From Polytrichum commune (lineage: Eukaryota > Streptophyta > Polytrichopsida > Polytrichales > Polytrichaceae), in NCBI GenBank assembly GCA_950295325.1, contig OX485803.1:45025554-45089553 (forward strand): a stretch of 64,000 nucleotides of DNA, written 5' to 3'. Below are positions 5,501 to 58,711 of the stretch, in pieces (the first letter of the stretch is position 1; each line of letters opens with the position of its first letter). The position numbers and the translations under genes are program-made. Under the pieces are notes generated by a model. That model saw nothing but the letters and a program-made list of their open reading frames with translations. It was not told the origin of the DNA and made no database searches.

Positions 5501-6483
5501 CAAGCTTTTTTTTATTTAATGCGATAAATGCCTTCACTACATATATAAAATATAGATCATGGAATAAATATCCCTTCATTACATCTCTATTGGATGGAGT
5601 AATGTGCACTTAAGAGACTACCGACAAAGTGAGGTTCAATTCATATCCATCCTACCTGGGCAATTTGTCAACAATTTTGAATTCAAGCTTCAAATACCTA
5701 AATTAACTCCAAAAATAAGACTTCAACCAAAATAAGAATATCTAATTCTTATTAAAAAAAATTCGTCTGAATGTATAATAAATTTTGGTATTTTAAGAAA
5801 TAATATATGTTTCCATTGCAGTTGCCTAAGTAGGACGGGTATGTGAAGAGATTGATGCAAAAATGATTCCCTTGAGTTTACGGTTCTACGCTTATTTCTA
5901 TGTGTGTGATGGTGTATATTGGGGATCACATTATAGTACAACGAAGGTTATTCACACCAGGAGCGCATCCTCAATTTTACCACAAACAATGCAATCTACA
6001 ATGAATATTGTATTTAGTGTCACTTACTATTTGAAATTATGCAATGTTATAAATAGTTACAATATATCTCATTTTTCCTACAAAGGTCACATTTTTTTGA
6101 TAATTATCGAATATTAGCATCTTTACTTGGTACATCATTACATTAAAAGTAAAAATATATAGTGCCGTGTAGCTCCAAGTAATAAGTGACACTACATATC
6201 ATATTTAGTGTAGTAGTCCACAAAGGGTCAACATACATGATGAAATAATGTCGCCTCCATTACATTCGAGATGAAAAATATATAAGGTGTGGCTAACCAG
6301 GCTTCAAATTCCAATCGAGGTCTTTCCAAGATGAAAATCGTTGCATCCAAAAACCCCCAATGGAGCAAACACAATAACCGTTTTTGGGAGTAAGTGACCT
6401 TTTAAATAGAATTCTCACAAATCATGTGTGATACACTAAGTGTCACACTAAATCTTAAATCCACTAAATAATAGTGTTCAATA

Positions 6484-24038: not shown

Positions 24039-24050
24039 TTCTTGGATCTT
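24039..24050. repeat. Left target-site duplication of the non-LTR retrotransposon
   Basis: TTCTTGGATCTT is repeated exactly at 36248-36259, on the other side of the element. Twelve identical bases at the two expected places define the ends of the insertion. Confidence 0.8.
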
Positions 24051-25454
24051 GGTGTGGAAGAATTTTGTGGGGGAGCATGAGAGCCCCGACAGAGCCGAAC
24101 ACGGCCAAGCAACATCAAGACAACACCCAGAAACACAACGCCGAGGATCAATGGCGACTGCGCCACCAACAAACCCGAGCCCAAAACCCTAACAATGCTA
24201 CAGAAGCAGCCTCAACCCTACCCGACAAACAGCCAACCCACAGCAACACCGGACGGAGACAACCAAGAACCAAGCACAGGACAACAGAAGCAGATCCAGA
24301 TCCGAAACAAGTGAAAGATAGAAGAGCAGCAACAACATTTAGGGTTTTTTCTTTACTCATAATATGGGTGCTTCTAAGCACCAATGATCTGTGGGTATGC
24401 CCACACCACACAATACTCACACAAAAAATTGCATCCACAATCCACCCTCCAATCTACTCTCCAATCTACCCCTCCTCACTAAGATGTCTACACTCCACCC
24501 CGCCTCCAGCACCGCACCCACCAGATGGCTGCCCCTCACTAATCACCCCCAAAGATTCATACAGTCCTCTCAGATCACCCATCTACCAGCTAACGCTCCC
24601 TCCTCGTACCACTCCAGCTCCTCGATCCACAAAAGCGCCGCCGCCACCCACACAATGCCACACCACAGTGGTTAGAAAAAAGACTTGCACCTATCACACA
24701 AGCAACACAACCATCAAGAAACACCACACACCCAACATCACACTTTCAAAAAGCTTACCTACGCGAGCCCAGAATGCATCCTCCCAAACGACCGCAACCG
24801 CTCCGAACACATATCGCCGCACAGACATACACATCCACAGGACCGAGGCAGACAAGAACTACGCTCCCTCGCAACCTGCCACACTGGATCATCCCCAACC
24901 CCCCGCACATACCACCAAAACAGGCAGCCAACGATCTGCTACGACAGCTAGCCCCATACAGACAGCCAAGCAATCCAACCTCAGCATACCCCCTCCTACT
25001 CAAGAACAACACCACTCTCAACACACAGAGGTCCCCCGAATCGGAAACAACAAAATCACAGCAGAACCACCACTAATCACGCTGAGATCTAACACACTAA
25101 GCCACCCTAAACAAAGCAGATATGCACAAATACCATCCCACACCCAGACAAGAGACAAACAACCTGCCACTCAACGCCGTAAATCCAACCCAAAATCAGC
25201 CGAAACACACCTGGATGCACAACCCACCGATCCCTCACCCAGCCAAGCAGACCCCAATCCGCACCAAAGACTACACCACCCTCGCCCACCCCCTAACCTT
25301 CAAATACCCCACCTCCACACTGAATCCCTCACCTCACTCTCAGTACCATACATCACCACACTTCACTCTCTATCCCACTGCCCCAGATCACTCTCTCCCA
25401 TCAAACTCCCCACCTCACCCCTCTCACACTCTCCCAAATCACTCCTCCTCAACA

Positions 25455-25846
25455 GGTCCTCCCCCGCACTCTGTCCACCACACAACGACACACCTCTGTC
25501 TCTCTCTCATTCTTCCACAGCAATCTCTTGCAGAACGGCCCCCACAAGAACTGGGCGCAGGGCACCCTCTCTCAGATCACTCCCCCCCAGCAGGTCCTCC
25601 TCCGCACTCTGTTCACCACACAGCGACGCACCTCACTATCTCTCTCATTCTCCCACAGCAATCTCTTGCAGAACGGCCCCCACAAGAACGGGGCGCAGAA
25701 CACCCTCTCTCAGATCACCCCCCAGCAGGTCCTCCCCCGCACTCTGTTCACCACACAGCGACGCATCTCACTCTCTCTCTCATTCTCCCACAGCAATCCC
25801 TCGCAGAACGGCCCCCACAAGAACTGGACGCAGGGCACCCTCAACT
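25455..25846. repeat. Three tandem repeats (138, 135 and about 119 bp) in the retrotransposon leader
   Basis: Units start at 25455, 25593 and 25728, each with GGTCCTCC and CGCACTCTGT, and each containing CACAGCAATC and AGAACGGCCCCCACAAGAAC. Tandem leader units are common in LINE promoters, and a promoter role is an inference. Unit lengths are multiples of three, and all three forward frames are open across much of the array because the sequence is poor in G and T. Confidence 0.85.
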
Positions 25847-25879
25847 AAAGCGGCAGCCGACCCACACAACAAACTCGCA

Positions 25880-28015
25880 ATGCAGGGCCCGAAGAAAGCA
25901 ACCTCGGAGATCGTCGTCGGGAGGGGAGGAGCCGAGAACTCAGCTGGCGAAGCAGGGGGAAGGTCCAACACCGACGGACCTCGCAGCCGCACCGGAGCAG
26001 GGGCGGAGACACGGATGGAGACCAGCCAACGGCAGGTAAATGACAGAGGTGTAGGTGCCACGCGAGGTGCAGGGGCCGGGAGCACCAGAGGCCGGTCGCA
26101 GAAATACAAGACTAGGAGCAGAAGAGCCATCTTAGAAGTCACCAGCGATGAAGATGAAGAAGAGGAAGCTGCCACTCCATCAAAGCAACCGCTACTTAAA
26201 CAAGATAAGCCCCCTCCCTCTCACGATTACGACATTGACATGCAGCTCGATGATGTATCCCCCGAGCGTGGTGGGAGCTCCCTCCGGCTCTCTATGTCAA
26301 ATGATGAGTTTGTCGCGGTACTCAACCAAGCGGCCACATCAAGATTGGACAACATCAACCTCGACAACATGACTCCCACACCCACCACACACAAGAGCCC
26401 AAGGATAGCGGCCACAACCGACAACCATAGCGCCAAGAGGAGACGAAACGAAGAGGGACGACACAAGACACACTCCGATTCCAATAAATCTTACAACATG
26501 AGGCCCAAGGAAGCAATTCCTAGCATCGATATAGTCTCACGAATGTGGCTCGGATTCCCAATCCACGAAGCCGTCGCCAACCATAGAGGCAAGGAAATCA
26601 TTCGAGAACACCGCACCAAGGAGGAATTTGCAAGAGTAGGCACCCCCCCACAAGAAGTCATAGAGTTCACAACACTCCGAAGAGCATTCCCAAGGGTGCC
26701 ACAAATGCTCTACCCCAACGAACGACCGGATGCGGTCCCGGGTAATCATCTTCACTTTACTCAACTCCCAAGATTCGAAAAGGTAGACCCCACTACCGGT
26801 TTATCGGAGGGCTTTCAAGTCACTATCCGCTTTGATCATGGTTTTAAAGGTATAGCTAGACACGATGCATGTGTAGCTTGCCTAGAGCGCCTTCGCACAA
26901 TGAATATCTCCCTAGGTACAATGTACGCTAACCCGCTTGACATAGGCCTTAACGCTGTCACCAAGCATTGGGCGGGATTCATTAAGCTCCATTTACAACA
27001 ACCACAACAAGATGGGATTGCACTCCTCCAAGGAAGCCGCGCATTTGTAATGACAATGGAGGATGGGGAGCGGGTCATCGGTAAAGTAGAAAAAAGTTAC
27101 GAACTTGCCACCAAGGCTCGTAATCTCCGACTTCACCTCAAAGGTGACTCATTACGACACGAGCACGCTTTTGACATCTTTGAGGCCATTGTCCGGGAGA
27201 ACTACTACACCGGCAAACAACACGAGTTCATGGGACTCGCCAAGCCGGAGCTCAAGAAGAATTTCGTTTTTCTTACCCTAACTATGGAGGAGGCACGTGA
27301 CCTAGTGTTAAAGGAAGGAATCACCTTTAACCATGAGAAATTGCAAGTGAGTCTCACCCGGGATAGAGGAGCTAGCCACCCATCGGAGCTTAGAATTAAC
27401 ACAACGTTGGTCGCCAACAACTTACCACAAAGGGAGACTCAAACCGCTATCACGCGCGCCATTAAACAAGTATTTGGGGCGGACAACATCGTCGGCATCA
27501 ACTATGGTGCCAACAATCACCCACATACCGATAAGCAAGCGGGATGGTGCCACATCCATTGCCTAAACGCCGCGGTCTACACGGAGTGGCTACACAAGTC
27601 TACATCCATACTAGGGAGGCGTGTCGACTTCATCCCACACCGCGGAAGTATCGACGGCGCGCTTCCCAACGACACGGCAATCCGACTTGCCCACGCACCC
27701 GCACGAGAGGCCATCGCGGATAAAATCCAAGCAATGACCAACGCGGCCAACCCCAACCCATTAGTTACCGAAAGGTATCTCTCTAAAACCATGAAAGAGT
27801 TCGAGGATAAACTCGAAGAGAAATTCGGCACCCTCACCACCACCATCAACACACACACGGATCAACGACTCGAAACAACGGTGGCGACTATCGTCCATCA
27901 CACAACCCACCTTCAATCGCTCCTTGAAACGATAGCGCACGAGTTCCAACAATCGAACATCCGAATGCAAGGATTAGTCAACGGACTATCCGCCGCCGCC
28001 CCGGAGCTCCTCTAA
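25880..28015 (+). CDS. Retrotransposon ORF1 protein with RRM-like folds, intact
   Basis: The proposed 711-residue product starts at the ATG of MQGPKKATSE. It is the first ATG at the change from repetitive A/C-rich leader to balanced coding sequence. Residues about 1-90 are Gly/Arg-rich. An acidic DEDEEEE run follows at about 90-97, and a basic KRRRNEEGR patch near 187 is a candidate nuclear localisation signal. Residues about 300-495 read as one RRM-like fold (NFVFLTL, ITFNHEKLQVSL). Residues 504-591 form a clearer RRM, with RNP2-like TLVANNLP and RNP1-like AGWCHIHCL. Residues 633-704 are a predicted coiled coil. ORF1 proteins of this kind bind element RNA and act as chaperones in the RNP. 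The frame stays open upstream to 24077 (ATG), so a longer N terminus cannot be excluded. No stop or frameshift is present. Confidence 0.75.
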   Translation: MQGPKKATSEIVVGRGGAENSAGEAGGRSNTDGPRSRTGAGAETRMETSQRQVNDRGVGATRGAGAGSTRGRSQKYKTRSRRAILEVTSDEDEEEEAATPSKQPLLKQDKPPPSHDYDIDMQLDDVSPERGGSSLRLSMSNDEFVAVLNQAATSRLDNINLDNMTPTPTTHKSPRIAATTDNHSAKRRRNEEGRHKTHSDSNKSYNMRPKEAIPSIDIVSRMWLGFPIHEAVANHRGKEIIREHRTKEEFARVGTPPQEVIEFTTLRRAFPRVPQMLYPNERPDAVPGNHLHFTQLPRFEKVDPTTGLSEGFQVTIRFDHGFKGIARHDACVACLERLRTMNISLGTMYANPLDIGLNAVTKHWAGFIKLHLQQPQQDGIALLQGSRAFVMTMEDGERVIGKVEKSYELATKARNLRLHLKGDSLRHEHAFDIFEAIVRENYYTGKQHEFMGLAKPELKKNFVFLTLTMEEARDLVLKEGITFNHEKLQVSLTRDRGASHPSELRINTTLVANNLPQRETQTAITRAIKQVFGADNIVGINYGANNHPHTDKQAGWCHIHCLNAAVYTEWLHKSTSILGRRVDFIPHRGSIDGALPNDTAIRLAHAPAREAIADKIQAMTNAANPNPLVTERYLSKTMKEFEDKLEEKFGTLTTTINTHTDQRLETTVATIVHHTTHLQSLLETIAHEFQQSNIRMQGLVNGLSAAAPELL

Positions 28016-28136
28016 AGGAATATTCCACCTCCCATACCTCAAGGCCTCAACAAGACCGCACCACCGCTCCCACTCCAAGCCCCCCCGGGCTTCCACGGAA
28101 ATCCACAAATGAACCACCAAGGACCTCCCACATTCC

Positions 28137-31100
28137 ATGAATAGACAACCCATAGGCTATCTTAAATGGATCGTATATGCCATATGTTATATTTTCTTAT
28201 ATCTTTATAATAAAGAGCTTGCACTCATCCTTTTGTTATCACACACTATCTCCAAGGACACTCAAAACATCTACCAACAATCAAGCCTCTTCATTCATCT
28301 CCAAAGAAAACTACACAACACATATATAAAACTACAACTACACACATACTATCACCTAAGAAACTCAATCACACTTAGCCTTACATTCACAACTTGGTTA
28401 TTATACGGGCCCACCCAATACAACCATTATGTCAACTATCAAAAACATCTCCATAAATCCATAAACGCCCAATACCATAATACACCAACACTCCAATATC
28501 TACAAATACTATACCACCCAAATAAATTTAACACACTTAGCCTTACCTTCACACTATGGCTAAGTCTCCTCCTTACCCCTAACCAACTACAACCTCCATA
28601 CCATGCTACATACGCTCCCCAAACACAAGAAAATTCCCATAACACATCAATAATAAACCAACACCATCTAAAGAAACTAAGGATACCTAACCTCACACAT
28701 ATAATGAATAGGTGTCTCCTAGGATATCACAAATGGCTCCTCCCTCTCATAGGTTGTACCGCCTCACTCCCATATAATAAAAAGACCACAACTTTGTTAG
28801 GAGAAATCGCCTCATACATAAACATGCACAAAAAGATACCCACCACTAGATATATATGTATCCTCACAATTATTCTTCTTCTCCCAACAACACACATACA
28901 CACTAAATCACCAATACCCCACAACACAACACACTCCACAATACACACACAAAATATAATGCCCACAGTCCACAAAGCTACCAACACCGTTCCCCACTAT
29001 AACCACGCACTAAATAACCATACAATCACCACCCCACAATACACACCCCCTAACAAACTTCCCACCCCACACATAATAATCAACAATGTAGACAAAATAG
29101 GTAACATTTGCTACATAACACACCTACACCTCAAAACCCCTAAAAACAAACCCATACAATACTACACATGGAATAACTCTACACTCATCCTCCTAAGTGG
29201 GGACATCCAACTTAACCCGGGACCAATATACAACATACTCAAGAACCTCCCCCAAGCATATATAAAAAGACAAAAACAATACTTCCTACCCAACACATTA
29301 ACACTCAAACCTCAATACACACACTTAGAAAAACTATTCGAACCTCATCTTTCACACACCACCAATAATCCCCAAAATCTAGCACTAACACACTTACGAA
29401 CACATAGTCTACTCCTCTCACAATATCCAACACACCACATACGATATGCACTTATAATAGTATATAGCCCACTACCACAAGTTTGTAATCAACTAATGTC
29501 CAAAAAACTAGACCCAAGATACCTAACCATCCTACGGAGACTTCAAGCACTCCCCATAGACACATACTCAACACCAACACACATAAATAACTACCCCCTC
29601 ATGTACACAACCACAACAACCATAACACAAGCATATTCCAACATTAATGACAAAATAGCCAGAGGAATACCTATAACTCTAAATAGTCTAAGGATAGAAC
29701 TACCTCACTTCCCAACAAAAATATTACAAGAACTAACCAAATGCACTCAACCTATAATAGGACACCACCCTACCACAAGACCAACAAACCACCGACAAAC
29801 ACCACCTAGCGACACAAGACCAAACAACCCTCAAACTCAAACCTTAAACATAATCACCTGGAATACCGGATGCATTAGCACTAGCCTACCCGGTATCCAA
29901 GAGCTCACAAGAAAATTACACCCAAACCCTCACATCATCCTTATCCAAGAAACCAAAATCCCAAAAACTAAATCCACATCATACATAGACCGCCAACTAC
30001 AAACTAATATACAACAATTCCAACAACATGACACAAAGGCATAATAGATACTCCGGGCCCACACAAACAAGAAGAGGCATACTTACCATGATACCCAAAT
30101 CGATATATACAAATGAAAACATCGCCAAAATCCCAACCCCGAGTCACATATCACCATACCTCCAAGCCATCCTAATCAACAACAAACCCTTAACACCAAT
30201 ACTCCTACTAAATATGTATATGCCAACAAATCCACAAGACATACACCTTATACCGGACATTCAAAATAAAATCCTTACCCTCATGACCCAACACGCTAAC
30301 CACCAAACAATATTAGGAGGAGACTTCAATCGAGATATCTTACTCAAAGGTAGAATATATAACGGCATCCCTACACCACCCAACCACAACGACCAAGAAT
30401 GGGCCCGCTTCACACAAACCAATAACCTCAATGTGGTTCCTAACCCAAAACTGCTCACAAGACAAGGAGGCCACAACTACACATCCACAAGTCACATAGA
30501 CGGTTTTTACACTAACACTTCCCACACTCCGAACCTCATAAGCCACACAATAACTAACCTCAACCAAAACTCGGACCACTACCCGGTCCAACTCCAACTA
30601 AACCCAAATAACATAATCATCAAAGACCACAATACACCCACAAACCAACCCCGTATCACATATCCCATATCCCCCAAAAGCCTCCAAACCCTACAAATCA
30701 CATTCCTAGAAAAACAAAACTTAGCAATAGAAGACCTCACAAAAATTCTCCAACATGACCACCTCACACATACACAATGGGAGAACGCACAAACTACACT
30801 TCAAGAAATCATCAACTCCCTAAGCCAATGTATTGAACACACTTGTATGACAAAACCTACCCCGCCTCTACCTAATAGAGTCAAAAATCAAGGAGGCTTC
30901 CTCCCTAGAACACAACAAAAGAAATGGAAACGGCTACTAAAAGTACACCATACTATTCATAAAGCCATAAGAGCCACATGTCAATACCCCCTCACTCACC
31001 TTTACAACGAACCCGACATCATATCCCTCCAATTAATCCAAACACCTAATATCCCACCCTTACCTACCAACCCCGCGGACTTACATACTTGGGTGGAAGA

Positions 31101-34100
31101 ACTCGCCAAAATCGGTAAAAATGCCAAGAGCGAAGCCCACAAAATCATCACTAAACAAACATCCACCAACTGTAAAATAGCCATTACAAAATATAGAGCC
31201 CTACTTAATAGCAAACCCAAAACCATCCACAAAAAGATATTTAACCCGACAACCAACAACTCCCTAGATTGCCTCCAAAATATACACGGACAAATCCTTG
31301 TCAATTCCCGAGATATAGCCCAAGAAATATACCAAACACAACAACAATCATTTCAAAGACAAGCCCCCTTATGTGATGACGTCACGGACCACCCAAACAC
31401 ATGCACATGTGCAGTCCGCAAATACCCATGACACTCACAACAAGGCTTCATCCTAGATAAGAGAAGCCCCCTAAATGCACACATAACCCCCCAATTTACT
31501 AGAGAAATATACGATTGCTGCATCAAACGATTAACAAGAGGAAAAGCCCCCGGTCCGGACAACATCCCTAATGACATACTCAAAGCGCTCCCACCGCAAT
31601 GACACGATCTCCTTTTCCTCTTCTTTACCCACTGTTACAAACAAAGGACAATCCCGCACCACTGGAAACACAGTAAAACAATATTACTGCACAAAAAAGA
31701 CGACCCGACCCACCTAGCCAACTATAGACCAATAGCATTAGCCAACACGATTTATAAGCTATACACAAGTACACTAACCACATTACTAACGAACTATGGA
31801 GAGCAACATAGATTACTCCACTTTAGCCAAAAAGGTTTTAGACCACAACGAAATACATCACGCCAAATTCAAACCATAATAGTGGCCCTAGAAGATGCCA
31901 AACTTACCACACAAGACATATACTTAATTTACATCGATTTCCGAAACGCATTTGGATCCATAGACCACGCCCGCCTCCTCGCCCTAATGGAAGACCTAGG
32001 CTACCCCCTAGACAAGGTCGAAATAGTGGGTAACATATATGAAAACTCTTCCACCTCCTTCGCGGGAAGCCATTTCCGGACAACTCCTCCAATACGAATA
32101 AGTAGAGGGACGATACAAGGAGACACCCTTAGTCCATATTTATTTATTATCTTTCTTGAACCACTCCTAAGATGGCTAGAGAAAGATGATGTAGGATACC
32201 ACTTCAATACCTCCCACTCCACGTGTACCACCACCGCCTACGCCGATGACTTAGCCATCCTCACGGACAACATACAAAGTATCCAAACGCAAATCATCAA
32301 ACTACAAAAATATGCGGAATGATCCTACATAGATCTCAACCTCTCAAAGTGCGCCATCACCGGATGTCCTAATAAATCTAAACTCAAGCCTAATACCTTC
32401 AAAGCCTACATCCAATCCCAAAATATCACGTACAAATCACAAAATTTTCCCATCCTCACCCAAAATGAATCATACACCTACCTAGGCATACAATTGACAC
32501 CATCACTTAAATGGAATTTACAAAAAGAAACAACATTAAAGAAAGTCAAACAACAAAGTCAATTGTTAGCCAACTCGCCAGCTAGCCTTATACAAAAAAT
32601 AAAAATCCTAAACACGGTCATTAAACCTCGTATAGCATACGCATACTATGCAGTCCCATTTTCCAAACCTGACATTAAAAAATTAGACAAAATAATTAGT
32701 AAGTTAACCAAAGACATATGTCACATCCCCAAAAGCACGGCCAATATCCTCACTCACCTCCCTCACGAAAACTTTGGAATCAATGCAACCTCCCTACTAC
32801 CGGACTATGTAAGATGCATAGGCCAACAATTAATCCAAGCCCTTAACGACCCCGGTCAATTAGGTATCATCTACCAAGGACTCACAAAACATATTACGGC
32901 CAAATATGGCGGCTCACTCCACCTACCTAAACTCAAGCAACAAGCATGCATAAGATCGCCCATAGCTCGAACGCTATTCCTCCTCGAAAGGGAATATGAA
33001 ATACATGTCACCTCCGCAAAATGATCATTCCCCATCAGAAAGACACCATTAGAACAAACTTGGACAACTAATCCCAACAACGCCAACCTCACGGAAAACT
33101 CCATAACCAAAACCCAAAAATATTTAAATAAACTCTACACATACGGCATAACCACACTACCCCAAATCCAAAACCCCGACACAAAAACCATCCTCACCCC
33201 CCAAGAATTCCAAGCCAAATATAAACACGCCCCAAAACTTATCAAAGAAGCCCTCCAACAAGCCACAATATTATTCCCTACTCCCACCGTCACAATACCC
33301 ACGTCCCTCTCTCAAGACCCTTATGCTCCTAACACTCCCGCCATAACCTCCCAACCCACACTAGGGCAACCCATCCAAAAAATAATCAATGACAAAACCA
33401 ACATCCGAAAAGACAAATGGGGAGCACAAGCCATAAAACAAATGTACCTATGCCAATGGCAACTATCACAAGGAATCTCCCAACAATGGCGCAAAGAAGA
33501 AGAACTAATTCACCCGGATAACATCCTCCTTGAACATAACATACTACGCATAACACAATACCACCACACCCAAACAAAACAACAAAATATACAAACATAC
33601 GCCAACTTTCTCAACCACAAACAAACAAAAGACAACAAATATGTACACCCACCCCGAAGAATTACCAACCTAACACTATCTATACACGAATGCAACCCCG
33701 ATAAAGATATACAAACGACCCAACCTACCATCCAAATACAAGCCTTGGAGGCCAACATATACGACTCCACAGGCAACTACATGGCCACCCTTACCATTGA
33801 AAGACTACAATGGCTTTGGGATCAATTCTCACACAACAACCATACTCACTTAATTAATGAAATCCAACCCCCACCCCAAAATTTTGAAACAGAAGTACTA
33901 TGGCTTATACAAAGATACATCACAATCCTTCCTAAGAAAAAACCAAAAAACACACTACCAAGCAACCTCCACCATACACTACACCCAACAATCACCAAGA
34001 CATTAATAGAATCACTTAACATCACACACTCATACTATTCATCCCCCCTCACATGCCCCACCCAACTCACACAATTTTACTCCCCACACAACCGAGATAA

Positions 34101-36094
34101 AATCTTTGGCTCATTGGGTCATGCCCAATCTTCTAGATGGAAAGGTATTGGCCTCGCACACCCCACGGACTACAACACCACAATAGAAGCCATCCATTGG
34201 GCCCGTATGGCAGCTAAGGAAGACATAGACACAATAACTATCCTCGTAATCAACCATAATGATTGGACGCCACAACAATTCCCAATCTCAACAAAGGGAG
34301 ACATACACATACTAGCCACTATCCCTCCACACACAATACAATACAACCCTACACCCGAATGGCCAAAATACTACCACTACGAAGAACCATCCCTAGTCTC
34401 AATAATTTGTATACATAGCCAAACACACTTAGCACCGAACCTAAAAACCCCCCCCCGCACTCACACATGCACTAAAACTAACCACTAACACACACATTGA
34501 CACCTACCCCATCAAACCCACCACACCAAACTACCATATCAAATTCTCAAATACATGGAAAAATGCTCCCAAAATAGATACTCCCATAACAACAACCACC
34601 ACTCCAATACCTTTACCAAATAAATACTACACCCAACACCCCCCTAAATACCAACCACAACAATGCATGTACACCGACAGGTCATTCATCCCCCCATCAA
34701 AAAACTCGGAAGGCCAAATAATAGGCAACACGGCCGGCTCCGGAGTATATAGTCCCCACCAAGACATCCAAATTTCAGAGAGATTACCGGGATACCAAAA
34801 CATACTCAGAGCAGAACTCAACGCCATACTCATAGCGGTCAAAACCATACAAACTACCCAAATGGACACACACATATTCACAGATAGCCTTAACAGTATA
34901 TACTTAATTAACAACCATATACAACGCCCAACCTCGCAACATCACCACCCCGATAAACTCCTCATAGCAGCCATAATACACCAAATCTATTGGACTCCAC
35001 ACTCCATCCACATTCACAAAGTATGAGCCCACACAGGAATTGTGGGAAACGAAAAAGCGGACATATTAGCCAACGAAGGAAACCTCCAAGAAAAACCAAC
35101 CAACACCCCACACATCCACCTGGCACACGCCACACCTTACTGGCTAGCAAGTTGCCCAACCGCCACCCACGATGGAGCTATCAGAAATATTCACAAATTC
35201 ATACTAAAAGAACACACCAACCGAGAAAAAACACATGCCCAACACAAATTCCCATATGTAGAAAAATGGTTAACTAATGACCATATAAATCAAAAACTCT
35301 CCAACCACTTTTGGAAAAACACAAAAATAACAGACGCTCAAATCACCCAAACACTAAAATTCAGATATGCCCAATATATGGGTAACCATAGAAAAAACAT
35401 TTTTTGGCCCCTCAAATTCCGAAACCCCAATTGCACACTATGCTACAAAAATGATAGAGGCACATGGCCCCATCTACTATCAATGTGCGAGCATCCCTAT
35501 CTAAAAGGCCTAAGAATAGCCCGCCACAACAACGCGGTTCACTTCATCACTCAAACACTACAAGCCAACAAACACACAAGATACTACACATTAACAAATG
35601 CAGGAAACCTCAATAACACAAACCAACAACAAACGGTCCCAGAATGGCTCTTAGAATGCACGTGCCCACAAGCACAATGTCAATGCCAAGCAAGATTACG
35701 CCCAGACATCCTTTGTATAATAGGAGCCCCAAACCAAGCCTCAACACCCCTTATACCCTCACCCGCTCACACAATACAATTTATTGAATTCACATATTGC
35801 CATGACAGATTCCCGGAACAAGCAATCACACAAAAACATACAAAATACGACCCACTAATCAATGCTATACGGAGCAAAGGCTGGAAAACAAACCCCCTCA
35901 TAACTATCACAGCCGGCGTAAGAGGCGCCATACACGAACAATCCATCACAAGGCTAACAGACCTCAAAATACCAAAGACTAGCGTCAAAACTCTCATGAA
36001 AAACATACACCAAAATGCCATTAAATACTTAACATACCTTGTACTTAACAAAAGAAAACTAGACAATAAACAAAATACAGTCGCACCACCCTAA
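28137..36094 (+). pseudogene. Retrotransposon ORF2 polyprotein: leader, 2A-like, APE, RT, RNase H, CCHC-RLE (frameshifted, five TGA)
   Basis: About 2,650 codons in three frame segments. Segment 1 is 28137-30044: a hydrophobic leader, GDIQLNPGP at residues 355-363, and the start of APE (NIITWNTG, IQET). Segment 2 begins after a frame change near 30040: the APE remainder (GGDFN, SHIDGFY, NSDHYPV), then RT with KAPGPDNIP, NYRPIALANTIYK, SQKGFRPQR, QGDTLSP and YADD at 32239-32250. Segment 3 follows a frame change at a nine-C run near 34448-34456: RNase H (YTDRS at 34670, RAELNAI, FTDSLNS, AHTGIVGNEKAD), then CX2CX9HX4C from 35432, RHNN, RPD at 35699 and IEFTYCHD at 35783. In-frame TGA codons lie at 31429, 31600, 32320, 33022 and 35024, and there is no TAA or TAG. 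The protein would nick the target and prime cDNA synthesis at it. The start at 28137 is the first ATG of the frame. Confidence 0.85.
29199..29225 (+). other. 2A-like ribosome-skipping motif GDIQLNPGP in ORF2
   Basis: The motif ends in NPGP after LILLSGDIQL, matching the 2A consensus D-(V/I)-E-x-N-P-G-P except that Q replaces E. Skipping would fall between G362 and P363. It would release a hydrophobic 362-residue leader from the endonuclease/RT part. 2A-like motifs at this position are known in some animal and trypanosome non-LTR elements. Activity here is unproven, given the E-to-Q change. Confidence 0.7.
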
Positions 36095-36121
36095 AAAGGG
36101 ACCGAACATTACAAACTAAAA

Positions 36122-36199
36122 GAGCCCACCTCCCACAAGAGGCATAACTCCTTATGTAACAACACGGCTCGCCGTGTTAAACATCTGGATAACGGGCTC
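36122..36199 (+). other. Structured 3' UTR of the retrotransposon
   Basis: A perfect 8-bp hairpin, AACACGGC-TC-GCCGTGTT (36161-36178), is enclosed by a possible outer stem of GAGCCC (36122-36127) with GGGCTC (36194-36199). In non-LTR elements, 3' UTR structures are often the recognition site of the element's own RT. That role is inferred here. Confidence 0.65.
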
Positions 36200-36247
36200 A
36201 CATTCATGCCGGTACAATGTACAGGCGTAATTTTTCTTTCTTTCTTC

Positions 36248-36259
36248 TTCTTGGATCTT
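36248..36259. repeat. Right target-site duplication of the non-LTR retrotransposon
   Basis: An exact copy of TTCTTGGATCTT at 24039-24050. The first two or three bases could also be part of the pyrimidine tail, so the duplication may be 10-12 bp. Confidence 0.8.
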
Positions 36260-45240: not shown

Positions 45241-45589
45241 CGGTCTTTGAACCAGAGCTGGATTCTCTCGAATGTGTGAGAAATGCTTTAACAAGGTAAA
45301 GAAAGAGAAATATCTTTAGGTTGTGCGGTCTTTGAACCAGAGCTGGATTCTCTTGAATGTGTGAGAAATGTTGTAACAAGGTAAAGAAAGAGAAATATCT
45401 TCAGGTCATGCGGTCTTTGAACCAGAGCTGGATTCTCTCGAATGTGTGAGAAATGTTGTAAGTTAACAAGGTAAAGAAAGAGAAATATCTTCAGGTTGTG
45501 CGGTCTTTGAACCAGAGCTGGGTTCTTTGAATGTATGAGAAATGTTGTAAGTTAACAAGGTAAAGAAAGAGAAATATCTTCAGGTTGTG
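45241..45589. repeat. Four tandem repeats of 85-90 bp
   Basis: Units start at 45241, 45326, 45411 and 45501, each with CGGTCTTTGAACCAGAGCTG and ending AGAAATATCTTYAGGT. Units 3 and 4 share a 5-base insertion (AGTTA), so unit 4 probably arose from unit 3. The sequence is less AT-rich than its surroundings. No open frame spans the array convincingly. The flanks (45000-45240 and 45590-45940) hold nothing I recognise. Confidence 0.9.
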
Positions 45590-56288: not shown

Positions 56289-56808
56289 TGCCCCCTCTCC
56301 ACCTGACTTCAGCGAGCTTAAAAGTTGGTTCTAAAAACACGGCCTCCACACCATCGACATTATCTAGTGTCGAGCCTAGTTGGCAAATGATGTGGCATGA
56401 CTTAAAAGTGGAGGTTTTAAGCCCCAAGCACCGAACCTCCCATCGGTACCTAGACATGAGGCAAGAATATAGAACTTTTAAAAGGATCGCCTCCTGTCCT
56501 TGTGATTGGTTGCTTTTGAGTCTTAGCTATGAGGGCACGAGGAGCTCCATTAACAAAAACCGATGGTAAGATAGATGAGTAGTAAGGGATTTGGGGATGG
56601 GACAAAAACTATCCAACATTCATTGCTTGGTAGATAAAACCATGAACATGTGTGAAAGCTACTTAACTAAAACCTACTCAAAAATCTTCTGAGCAAGTTC
56701 TTGTAGGTGCATTGGGATAGCCGGTTGCCTCCCCTATAACCGAGGGAGCTTTACCCAAGTTTTAGGAAAGACCTTGGTTATTTGGTAAAGTCAGGTGGGA
56801 AGGGGGCA
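56289..56808. mobile_element. 520-bp MITE of family M1 inserted inside another M1 copy
   Basis: It starts TGCCCCCTCTCCACCTGACT and ends GTCAGGTGGGAAGGGGGCA, with TTA at 56286-56288 and 56809-56811. It sits within the CTTAGCTATGAGG site of an older copy of the same family. Its length equals the copy at 15888-16407. Confidence 0.85.
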
Positions 56809-57094
56809 TTAGCTATGAGGGCACGAGGAGCTCCATTAAAAAAAACCGATGATAAGATAGGTGAGTAGTAAGGCATTTGGGGACGGGACAAAAACTACCC
56901 AACATTCATTGCTTGATAAATAAAACAATGAACATGTGTGAAAGCTACTTAACTAAAACCTACTTGAAAATCTCCGGAGGAAGTTCTTGTAGGTGCATTG
57001 GGATAGCTGGATGTCTCCGCTATAACCGAGGGAGCTTTACCCGGTTTTTAGGAAATACTTTGAGTCTTAGCTAAAGTCAGGTGGGAAGGGGGCA

Positions 57095-58711
57095 TGAGAT
57101 AGGTCAACAAATTGTAATACTCCTAGTAAAGCATGATTAATTCCAAGCCAACATAAGGGGTTTTAAGGTGGCAAGAATTTGTAGAATCAGATCTATGAGA
57201 GAGGAGGACATTGTCGAATTTGTTGAGGACATTGTTGTAAAGGGGAGGAAGTCTTCTTTACGTGCTTTAGGACTTTCTTCCACATAATTCTAGGATAGTC
57301 AAGGAGACATTGCTAGATAGTTTGCATCGCCTTCTTAACATTCCCTCTATGTGAAGATGTAGATGGAGATAACAAGAGAGGACCTTCGCAAAGCCAATGC
57401 CACACAAGTATGGCTTTAGATATAAAAATAAGGCCCTCGGCCTTTTGCATTATGGGAATAAGGACTTGGTCCATTTTGCATAATTTTTCCTTTATCAAGC
57501 ACAAGTAAATTCAACCAAGTTCTTCTAAGGCATTTATGTCATCTAGGATTAAAGATGACATGATGCCACCTAACAATGGAAAGTCTTGTCCTCACCGAGG
57601 ATTTGAAACTATGGATTACGCATATCCATGGTGGTACATCTACCTTCATCTTAGTTGAGACAGAGGAGGTGAAACGCAAGGTCCTTATGAATATGGAGGA
57701 GTTCTAGTCAAGTGAAGGGAACAAAAAGCTTGTAGAGAATTTTATTGGGATCTTCACCTAGAACTGTAGCCTTAAACAACCACATGGTATATAGTCCTAC
57801 CTCTTTAATATGACACATTTGGGAAACGAGAAAGCCGTTGTATTATTGAGGTGTCACATATTCAATACTATGACAAATTGGACCTTGTTGTCATAATAAC
57901 GAGGTATTTCATGAAAACACACATTAGATATTTTCCCACATATATATAAAAAAAAATTCTTTCAAATGTCTTTACAAATATGCAAATTTCTCTCATGAAA
58001 TCTATGTGGACTTGAAGAAGGAATCAATAGTCTACCTGATGTTGCCACTTCAAGTTAGCAACAAAGATCTTATTGAACTTCTCTGATATGGCATGCACTT
58101 TCATTACATTCGCAAGATTAAACTCTAATGGGTTGTCCATCACAAACATAGCTAACAATTGAGCATGATGTTGGCAACAACCAATTTCTCAATAAGTGGA
58201 GGTTTCTCATCAACATCTGAAGAGATCCAAGGGCCCTGCATTAAGGTCAAAACTAGGTGGCTTTATTCTCTGTCCCAAGGCTTTCCAACAATATCCAATA
58301 TCAAAAGCAATATCATAATTATTGAGTTCAAAATGCTTGAAAACAAACTGTGCACCTAGATTTAGGGTTTCGGTGAAAAACCAATGCAAAAGGAACATAA
58401 GCTAATGAGTCTCTTGATTAAGATGAGATAGAGAACCTAGTTCCCTTAGTTCCCATGTTTTAACATCATTTTACATTAATTAGTCTTTTATCTACATTTC
58501 GTACATGAAAGGTACATAAATTTAATATGAACTACGTACTTAAACATGGATGGAGCCCACCATCTATACATTTATCACCCTCTATAATATGACATTTTGG
58601 AGGGTCCAAGAATGTTTTTTTAGCAATGTCACAATTGTATTATAAAAATATATTTCAACTATAAAGTTTGGTTACAAAATTTGTGTCATTATATCAAGGT
58701 TGTCGTATTAT
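57095..58711. other. AT-rich intergenic sequence
   Basis: No supported gene. Open frames do not exceed about 66 codons and none is recognised. Confidence 0.5.

Follow-up and report, generated by a model that had tools for sequence, protein, structure and literature searches.

A LINE with two endonucleases in the moss Polytrichum commune, most likely a land-plant branch of Dualen/RandI

Retrotransposons of the R2 type insert site-specifically and have neither an apurinic-like endonuclease (APE) nor an RNase H. The Dualen/RandI group of long interspersed elements (LINEs) is described as encoding an APE together with a restriction-like endonuclease (RLE) (PMC4640811, PMC3636483), and LINEs with two endonucleases have been read as a sign that RLE gave way to APE as LINEs evolved (PMC4640811). 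The tables of a 2013 review place RandI under green algae, and list tails of (ATT)n and (CTATTT)n for Chlamydomonas RandI, with (ATT)n or (CTTT)n for the linked short interspersed elements (SINEs) (PMC3747384). In a comparison of Chlamydomonas relatives, the group is reported in every species curated (PMC8226300). We analysed a 64,000-nucleotide stretch of DNA from the moss Polytrichum commune (assembly GCA_950295325.1, contig OX485803.1, positions 45,025,554 to 45,089,553, forward strand), called the window below, which contains a non-LTR retrotransposon of about 12.2 kb. This element is very likely the degenerate copy of an autonomous LINE that encodes two endonucleases and has been mobile recently, and it belongs most probably to a land-plant branch of Dualen/RandI.

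The initial annotation had proposed that the open reading frame ORF2 of this element encodes an APE ahead of the reverse transcriptase (RT) and an RLE behind an RNase H. Position 28137 is indeed the ORF2 AUG, and the motifs are all present: LIQETK (29940-29957), GGDFNRD (30316-30336), SHIDGFY (30490-30510) and SDHYP (30571-30585) before the RT, then CX2CX9HX4C (35432-35488), RHNN (35522-35533), RLRPDI (35693-35710) and FIEFTYC (35780-35800) after the RNase H, with lysines at 35834 and 35843 downstream of IEF. Pfam recognised three of the four enzymes (Exo_endo_phos_2 1.5e-8, RVT_1 6.2e-27, RNase_H 3.5e-6) and gave no RLE match. The proposed limits, 28137-36094 on the forward strand, hold for ORF2; the whole element is longer (24051-36247) and is flanked by 12-bp duplications. 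The window copy is interrupted by in-frame stops at 31429, 31600, 32320, 33022 and 35024, and by frame changes near 30000 and near 34450; its RT retains YADD (32236-32256) and its RNase H motifs lie at 34670-35071. All five stops are TGA.

Intact copies were searched for in the 407.8 Mb assembly, which has seven large contigs of 42-78 Mb. The same order (2A-like motif, APE, RT, PCIF1-like domain, RNase H, RLE) was recovered within one frame in long open copies, which bears out the claim that APE and RLE surround the RT in a single protein. Copies L001 (contig C4) and L003 (contig C1) each contain one frame of more than 2600 amino acids with all domains, and an ungapped comparison over 9831 bases gives 99.69% identity between them, indicating recent movement. 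With the RT piece of the window, all 150 scored candidates matched (63-100% identity; 1722 rough candidates), and frames of at least 2000 amino acids, the longest of 2924, surround 15 of them. Searches with the RLE (6326 rough candidates) and with PCIF1_WW (697) also matched in 150 of 150 scored cases, all above the curated cut-off for PCIF1_WW. The excess of RLE over RT candidates would fit 5' truncation, the counts being rough. The window copy is a member of a large dispersed family. Fifteen long copies (L001-L015) were studied in detail, and split into two subfamilies, A, which includes the window, and B; RNase H (PF00075) was scored at 2.9e-12 in L003, 1.4e-14 in L002 and 1.3e-14 in L005. 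The sense strand of ORF2 contains 10.4% G and 39.6% A, and one moss L1 ORF2 has 22.5% G.

Both nucleases keep their key residues. Among the 14 of 16 available rows used for the APE alignment, the GDFN, IDG and SDH residues are invariant, and all 13 rows that extend far enough also have TWN and QET; the APE profile matched ExoIII-type structures of the PDB weakly (best 1.2e-4). For the RLE, 13 of 15 rows were aligned (L001 and L013 are cut and were left out, L004 is partial, the window and L010 are alike), and none of the 13 varies in the CCHC finger, RHN, PD, E or two lysines. In alignment numbering these residues include D136, E163 and K179/K182, the lysine pair following an E-x-T as it does in R2Bm. 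A more distant element, L062 (see below), has PD and a standard E-L-K. The catalytic residues of R2Bm are described as Asp996, Asp1009 and Lys1026, with the lysine on a helix rather than on the usual strand (PMC10499050), and the moss residues fit a lysine shifted in the same way. When the RLE profile was compared to the PDB with E-values up to 10, the sole matches were two R2Bm sequences over 940-979, the CCHC-RHN region (E 0.18). After adding L062 and dropping four moss rows, R2Bm was matched at E 0.026 over 932-979, the next hit being an unrelated lectin at 1.5. The CXCX4CXC insert of the moss rows is possibly a second metal-binding site.

Selection was estimated as the ratio of nonsynonymous to synonymous substitutions (dN/dS, Nei-Gojobori), leaving out the window and L004, which is near-identical to L005; the set of copies varied by domain, and pairs with saturated or very low dS were dropped. 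Approximate mean dN/dS values in subfamily A were 0.33 for the spacer (28/28 pairs), 0.15 for APE (21/21), 0.05 for RT (12/15), 0.16 for the PCIF1-like domain (28/28), 0.09 for RNase H (19/21) and 0.09 for RLE (20/21). In subfamily B, where pairs were few (between 1 and 6 for each domain), the values were 0.05-0.21. APE and RLE are both under purifying selection.

Maximum-likelihood RT trees were built with 20, 22 and 23 rows, including 12 moss copies (without L001, L008, L015 and the broken window piece), four moss L1s, human L1, three R2s and elements from metagenome-assembled genomes (MAGs). In these trees the moss element forms one group, apart from L1 and from R2. Human L1 and the four moss L1s, which come from the genome of the element itself, are split from all other rows with support of 100/98 to 100/99, and the R2 rows with 97/96 to 100/97. 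A group joining moss to R2 while excluding the MAG rows, specified once the first tree had been seen, was rejected (p-AU of the approximately unbiased test, 0.0015).

The MAG elements came from a scan of genome contigs, which yielded two relatives, L053 and L054, with 34-36% identity over about 465 amino acids (E 1e-88 and 1e-84, relative to candidate stretches). They join the moss element at 100/99 in the RT tree and are the closest relatives found. They sit in GTDB bins titled Mollicutes and Clostridiales (PUMO01, PUOC01). Contig C3, from the bin of L053, holds L062, a single frame of 3038 amino acids with APE, RT, PCIF1-like domain, RNase H and RLE. As these contigs carry a LINE, all three are probably mis-binned eukaryotic DNA; a search of the two bins for chlorophyll-binding proteins gave no match. 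Pfam identified Exo_endo_phos (2.5e-11), RT (5.9e-24) and RNase H (1.4e-15) in L062; its RLE matched that of L003 at 2.5e-12 with 28% identity and, searched against the moss genome, matched 142 of 142 scored candidates (best 2.4e-20). The PCIF1-like domain of L062 was found by alignment and is uncalled by Pfam, that of L054 being called at 9.4e-6, below the curated cut-off. The 3' end of L062 has a run of (TTTTC)n that resembles the tails of the moss copies. The bin of L054 gave no RLE match, and scans of viral contigs with RT, RLE, RNase H, a widened RT alignment and the L054 RT found no relatives. By eye, L054 and L062 (at 5862-6068) have a PHD-like Cys/His region between the RT and the PCIF1-like domain, for which Pfam gave a weak RING match in L062 (0.018); no such finger was seen in moss copies.

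The limits of the element, 24051-36247, were set by its 12-bp direct repeats, the second of which abuts the tail; a repeat of equal length was reached in 1 of 2000 shuffles. The contig has a sister copy, L030 plus L010, which is 99.1% identical to window positions 24103-26687 and 98.9% identical over 26609-36242. The first 52 bp of the window element do not align with it, nor do the approximately 180 bp that separate the sister's duplication from the start of the match, so that either the two copies have different 5' ends or one of the limits is less secure. Duplications were surveyed in 14 copies (window, L010, L004-L008, L013-L015, L048, L049, L050 and L052), and 11 have a clear one of 10-14 bp adjoining the tail; L005, L007, L008, L013 and L015 were scored without a separate check that their 5' copies adjoin the element. 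L049 has an 11-bp copy at the edge of the element, and the longer match listed for it is a second occurrence of the motif, 20 bp further upstream. The first base of the duplication is T in 11 of 11 clear cases, the edge with the T-rich tail being uncertain. Copies L048, L049, L050 and L052 are short and 5'-truncated, the usual sign of target-primed reverse transcription. L052, which has a 14-bp duplication and adjoins RT sequence belonging to another copy, is a nested insertion. Five loci (L048-L052) having the 3' tail and, among the matches listed, no partner RLE match were considered as SINEs; this reading was rejected, all five being pieces of the same element, and L051 containing most of the RLE.

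Besides what was first annotated, the element has a PCIF1-like domain, a 2A-like motif, an ORF1 overlapping ORF2, and a structured 3' untranslated region (UTR) with a TTTC-type tail. The PCIF1-like profile built from six B-type rows matched 6irx (E 0.018) and 6irv (0.056) best in the PDB, with flagellin next at 1.4; with 15 rows, 6irx alone was found (E 0.04). In the 6irv alignment, AHPHN of the element stands opposite ANPPF. NPPF is described as a motif of PCIF1 (PMC8868631). All 15 moss rows have another sequence in place of this catalytic motif (8 have AHP, 5 AFP and 2 AYP), and it was found neither in L054 and L062 (CHPI) nor in five high-scoring PCIF1 fragments of the genome (AHP). As NPPF is replaced throughout, loss of methylation is likely, and our guess is that RNA binding, at the cap or the 5' end, would be a more probable function. 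No report of PCIF1 in a retrotransposon was found among the matches listed in the Creative Commons-licensed PMC literature, Repbase and subscription journals being outside the scope of that search.

In the window, ORF1 has an earlier in-frame TAA (28013-28015) and thereafter stays open as far as its TAG at 28142. An RRM-like pattern was seen by eye around 27407, near the C-terminus; Pfam searches of ORF1 returned no match in the window or L005, and in L001 Apolipoprotein at 0.026, far below the cut-off. The ORF2 AUG overlaps the ORF1 stop, with a computed offset of -5 in L001, L004 and L014. The script anchor gave no offset for L006-L008, L010-L012, L015 and the window; the context of the overlap is also present in L003, L005 and L013 (ATGACTAG in B, ATGGATAG in A), and L002 is without the pattern. 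The 2A-like motif GDIxxNPG is found in 15 of 16 rows, and the full GDIxxNPGP in 14; such motifs have also been reported from other non-LTR elements (PMC4981915; reference list of PMC12846837). Across nine subfamily A copies, 13 of the 26 pairs predicted in the 3' UTR can still form although both of their positions have changed; the structure was predicted from the alignment on which it was scored, without a shuffled control. The conserved stems together with the TTTC-type tail suggest stringent 3'-end recognition.

Several observations weigh against our interpretation. Both nuclease activities are predicted from sequence, and single-sequence AlphaFold models were too poor to use (predicted local distance difference test, 33.8 for RLE and 34.7 for the PCIF1-like domain). 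Both E-values linking the RLE to R2Bm are weak. The dS values are high (means of 1.1-2.1 in A), and the dN/dS ratios are therefore approximate. The RT trees are unrooted, the R2Bm and human L1 branches are long, three rows were flagged for odd composition, and the references were R2, L1 and MAG elements only, algal Dualen being compared by description. In addition, when the RT profile was compared to the PDB (R2 9nl2 1.1e-42, R2Tg 3.4e-38, L1 1.6e-25, R2Bm 2e-24), R2Bm came no nearer than L1. Some copies score below the PCIF1_WW cut-off (L005, 27.4 versus 31.1 bits), the 2A-like motif is absent from L007 and altered in L015 (NPGA), no duplication was found for L006 and L014 in the stretch searched, and that of L004 is ambiguous, in a repetitive flank. 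Finally, at the E-x-K place of the RLE core the moss rows have E-x-T, and the role of the lysine pair is one that we infer.

This last substitution, taken with the description of the R2Bm finger as keeping DNA strands apart (PMC10499050), would be compatible with one working nuclease: the APE would cut, and the RLE region would be retained for binding DNA or separating its strands, or the roles would be exchanged. We regard this as possible, albeit rather unlikely, since the finger, RHN, PD, E and both lysines do not vary in the moss rows, the RLE has a mean dN/dS of about 0.09, distant L062 keeps PD and E with the standard E-L-K, and the APE catalytic motifs are conserved as well. The reading with two working nucleases is the one retained.

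A second question is whether the moss element belongs to Dualen/RandI or to a distinct clade that gained its second nuclease independently of the algal elements. Algal Dualen, which may or may not have a PCIF1-like domain, was compared by description, and this leaves some room for an independent gain. We find it improbable, given that the moss element combines the same rare pair of nucleases with an RNase H and with a TTTC-type tail, to be compared with the (ATT)n and (CTATTT)n of RandI and the (ATT)n or (CTTT)n of its linked SINEs (PMC3747384). Among the matches listed, the literature searched above contained no report of a land-plant Dualen/RandI, an earlier record being possible elsewhere. 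We therefore class the element as probably a new Dualen/RandI branch that has additional features, rather than as a proven member.

The two other alternatives were rejected, on the ground of single open frames with all domains and of RT trees separating the element from L1. A CCHC-like finger is also found at the C-terminus of plant L1s (zf-RVT; of 150 candidates scored in this genome, 141 matched), and could be mistaken for an RLE; an ordinary plant L1 or RTE is nonetheless very improbable, as the RT trees (RTE was outside them) place moss and human L1 on a separate side, and the RT profile favours R2 9nl2 (1.1e-42) over L1 (1.6e-25). The placement in L1 against which the initial annotation was to be checked was thus not obtained. 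A chimera, with an APE-type LINE beside or interrupted by an RLE element, has next to no likelihood left: the window copy taken alone does fall into several frames, but L001 and L003 have all domains in one frame on different contigs, and the same domain order in the contig of another eukaryote makes chance fusion untenable.

The features of a dual-endonuclease LINE would allow the following cycle. ORF1 would package the RNA, ORF2 would be made by termination-reinitiation, and the 2A-like motif would free the enzyme part of ORF2 from its hydrophobic N-terminus. The RT would recognise the stems of the 3' UTR, and one nuclease would nick the first strand at a place where the U-rich tail can pair with A residues, priming reverse transcription. 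RNase H would remove the template, and the other nuclease would cut the second strand about 12 bp away. The APE is the somewhat likelier candidate for the first cut, and the RLE for the second. We could go further and imagine an ancient plant and algal LINE lineage, in which two nucleases make cuts staggered by about 12 bp, and in which a captured PCIF1-type fold without NPPF was kept as a reader of RNA 5' ends favouring full-length templates, but this larger scheme is doubtful.

Features of the element are collected in Table 1. Elsewhere in the window, tandem repeats of 286 bp (56523-57095) and 85 bp (45241-45589) were found, and fragments at 147-2555 resemble by eye a gene for a TPR/HAT-repeat protein, perhaps HCF107-like. 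Outside the window, a tandem array with 14 Lhcb matches of equal score was observed at G000:C5:1751760-1846160. When a protein of this array was compared with single LHC chains of the PDB, the best scores were those of 8htu_U and 7xqp_a (482 and 480 bits), from Physcomitrium, followed by 8c29 of spruce (447) and 5zji (443); 9vfj_2, a longer chain of 620 amino acids, scored higher. This is indirect support for a land-plant host, likely a moss.

Table 1. Coordinates of the element and its parts in the window
Feature	Position	Strand	Remarks
Whole non-LTR element	24051-36247	+	about 12.2 kb; bounded by 12-bp target-site duplications
5' target-site duplication (12 bp)	24039-24050	+	same 12-mer at 36248-36259
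3' target-site duplication (12 bp)	36248-36259	+	directly after the 3' tail
138-bp tandem repeat	25425-25842	+	about 3 copies; 5' region of the element
ORF1	25880-28144	+	start inferred (MQGPKK...); stop TAG 28142-28144
ORF2 start / ORF1 stop overlap	28137-28144	+	ATGAATAG (pattern ATGNNTAG)
ORF2	28137-36094	+	broken in the window copy: five in-frame stops, two frame changes
2A-like motif SGDIQLNPGP	29196-29225	+	upstream of the enzyme part
APE domain (ITWN, QET, GDFN, IDG, SDH)	29853-30585	+	Exo_endo_phos_2; spans the first frame change
RT and thumb	31546-33021	+	RVT_1 6.2e-27; in-frame stops at 31600, 32320
PCIF1-like domain	33667-34446	+	PCIF1_WW 9.7e-8; AHPT in place of PCIF1 NPPF
RNase H domain	34628-35080	+	in-frame stop at 35024
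RLE region	35300-36091	+	motif conservation and homology
RLE motifs	CCHC finger 35432-35488; RHN 35522-35530; RPD 35699-35707; IEF 35783-35791; KxxK 35834-35845	+	
CXCX4CXC insert	35657-35686	+	between RHN and RPD; in moss rows, L062 without it
3' UTR	36095-36247	+	two predicted stems and T(TTTC)n-type tail

If LINEs with two nucleases persist in a land plant, abundant and recently mobile, their natural open copies offer a way to test how the two strand cuts are shared between the nucleases, and whether LINEs went through a two-nuclease stage. The PCIF1-like domain, common to the moss and MAG elements, would serve as a second marker of the group, and raises the question of RNA cap recognition by retrotransposons.

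Compared to the PCIF1/CAPAM cap m6Am methyltransferase, the element has a similar middle region (Pfam; PDB 6irx and 6irv best, but weak), whereas its NPPF is replaced by AHP, AFP or AYP, or by CHPI in the MAG elements, and the domain lies inside a retrotransposon protein. With R2 (9nl2, 9nl3/9dou, 8gh6) it shares a C-terminal CCHC finger followed by an RLE, 9nl2 and 9nl3/9dou being the best PDB matches of its RT; it differs in forming a separate RT group and in occupying many dispersed sites, and R2Bm is matched no better than L1. Plant and mammalian L1s likewise have an APE before the RT, and plant L1s an RNase H (PMC4640811) and a C-terminal finger, but L1 belongs to another RT group, has no RLE and is described as having mostly poly(A) tails (PMC3747384). 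The moss host sets the element apart from Dualen/RandI, and the PCIF1-like domain, the 2A-like motif and the CXCX4CXC insert may do so too, the algal elements being compared by description only. It resembles the descriptions of that group in having APE and RLE in one protein, an RNase H, a microsatellite-like 3' tail (PMC4640811, PMC3636483, PMC3747384, PMC8226300), and an RT that stands between RLE-type and APE-type LINEs.

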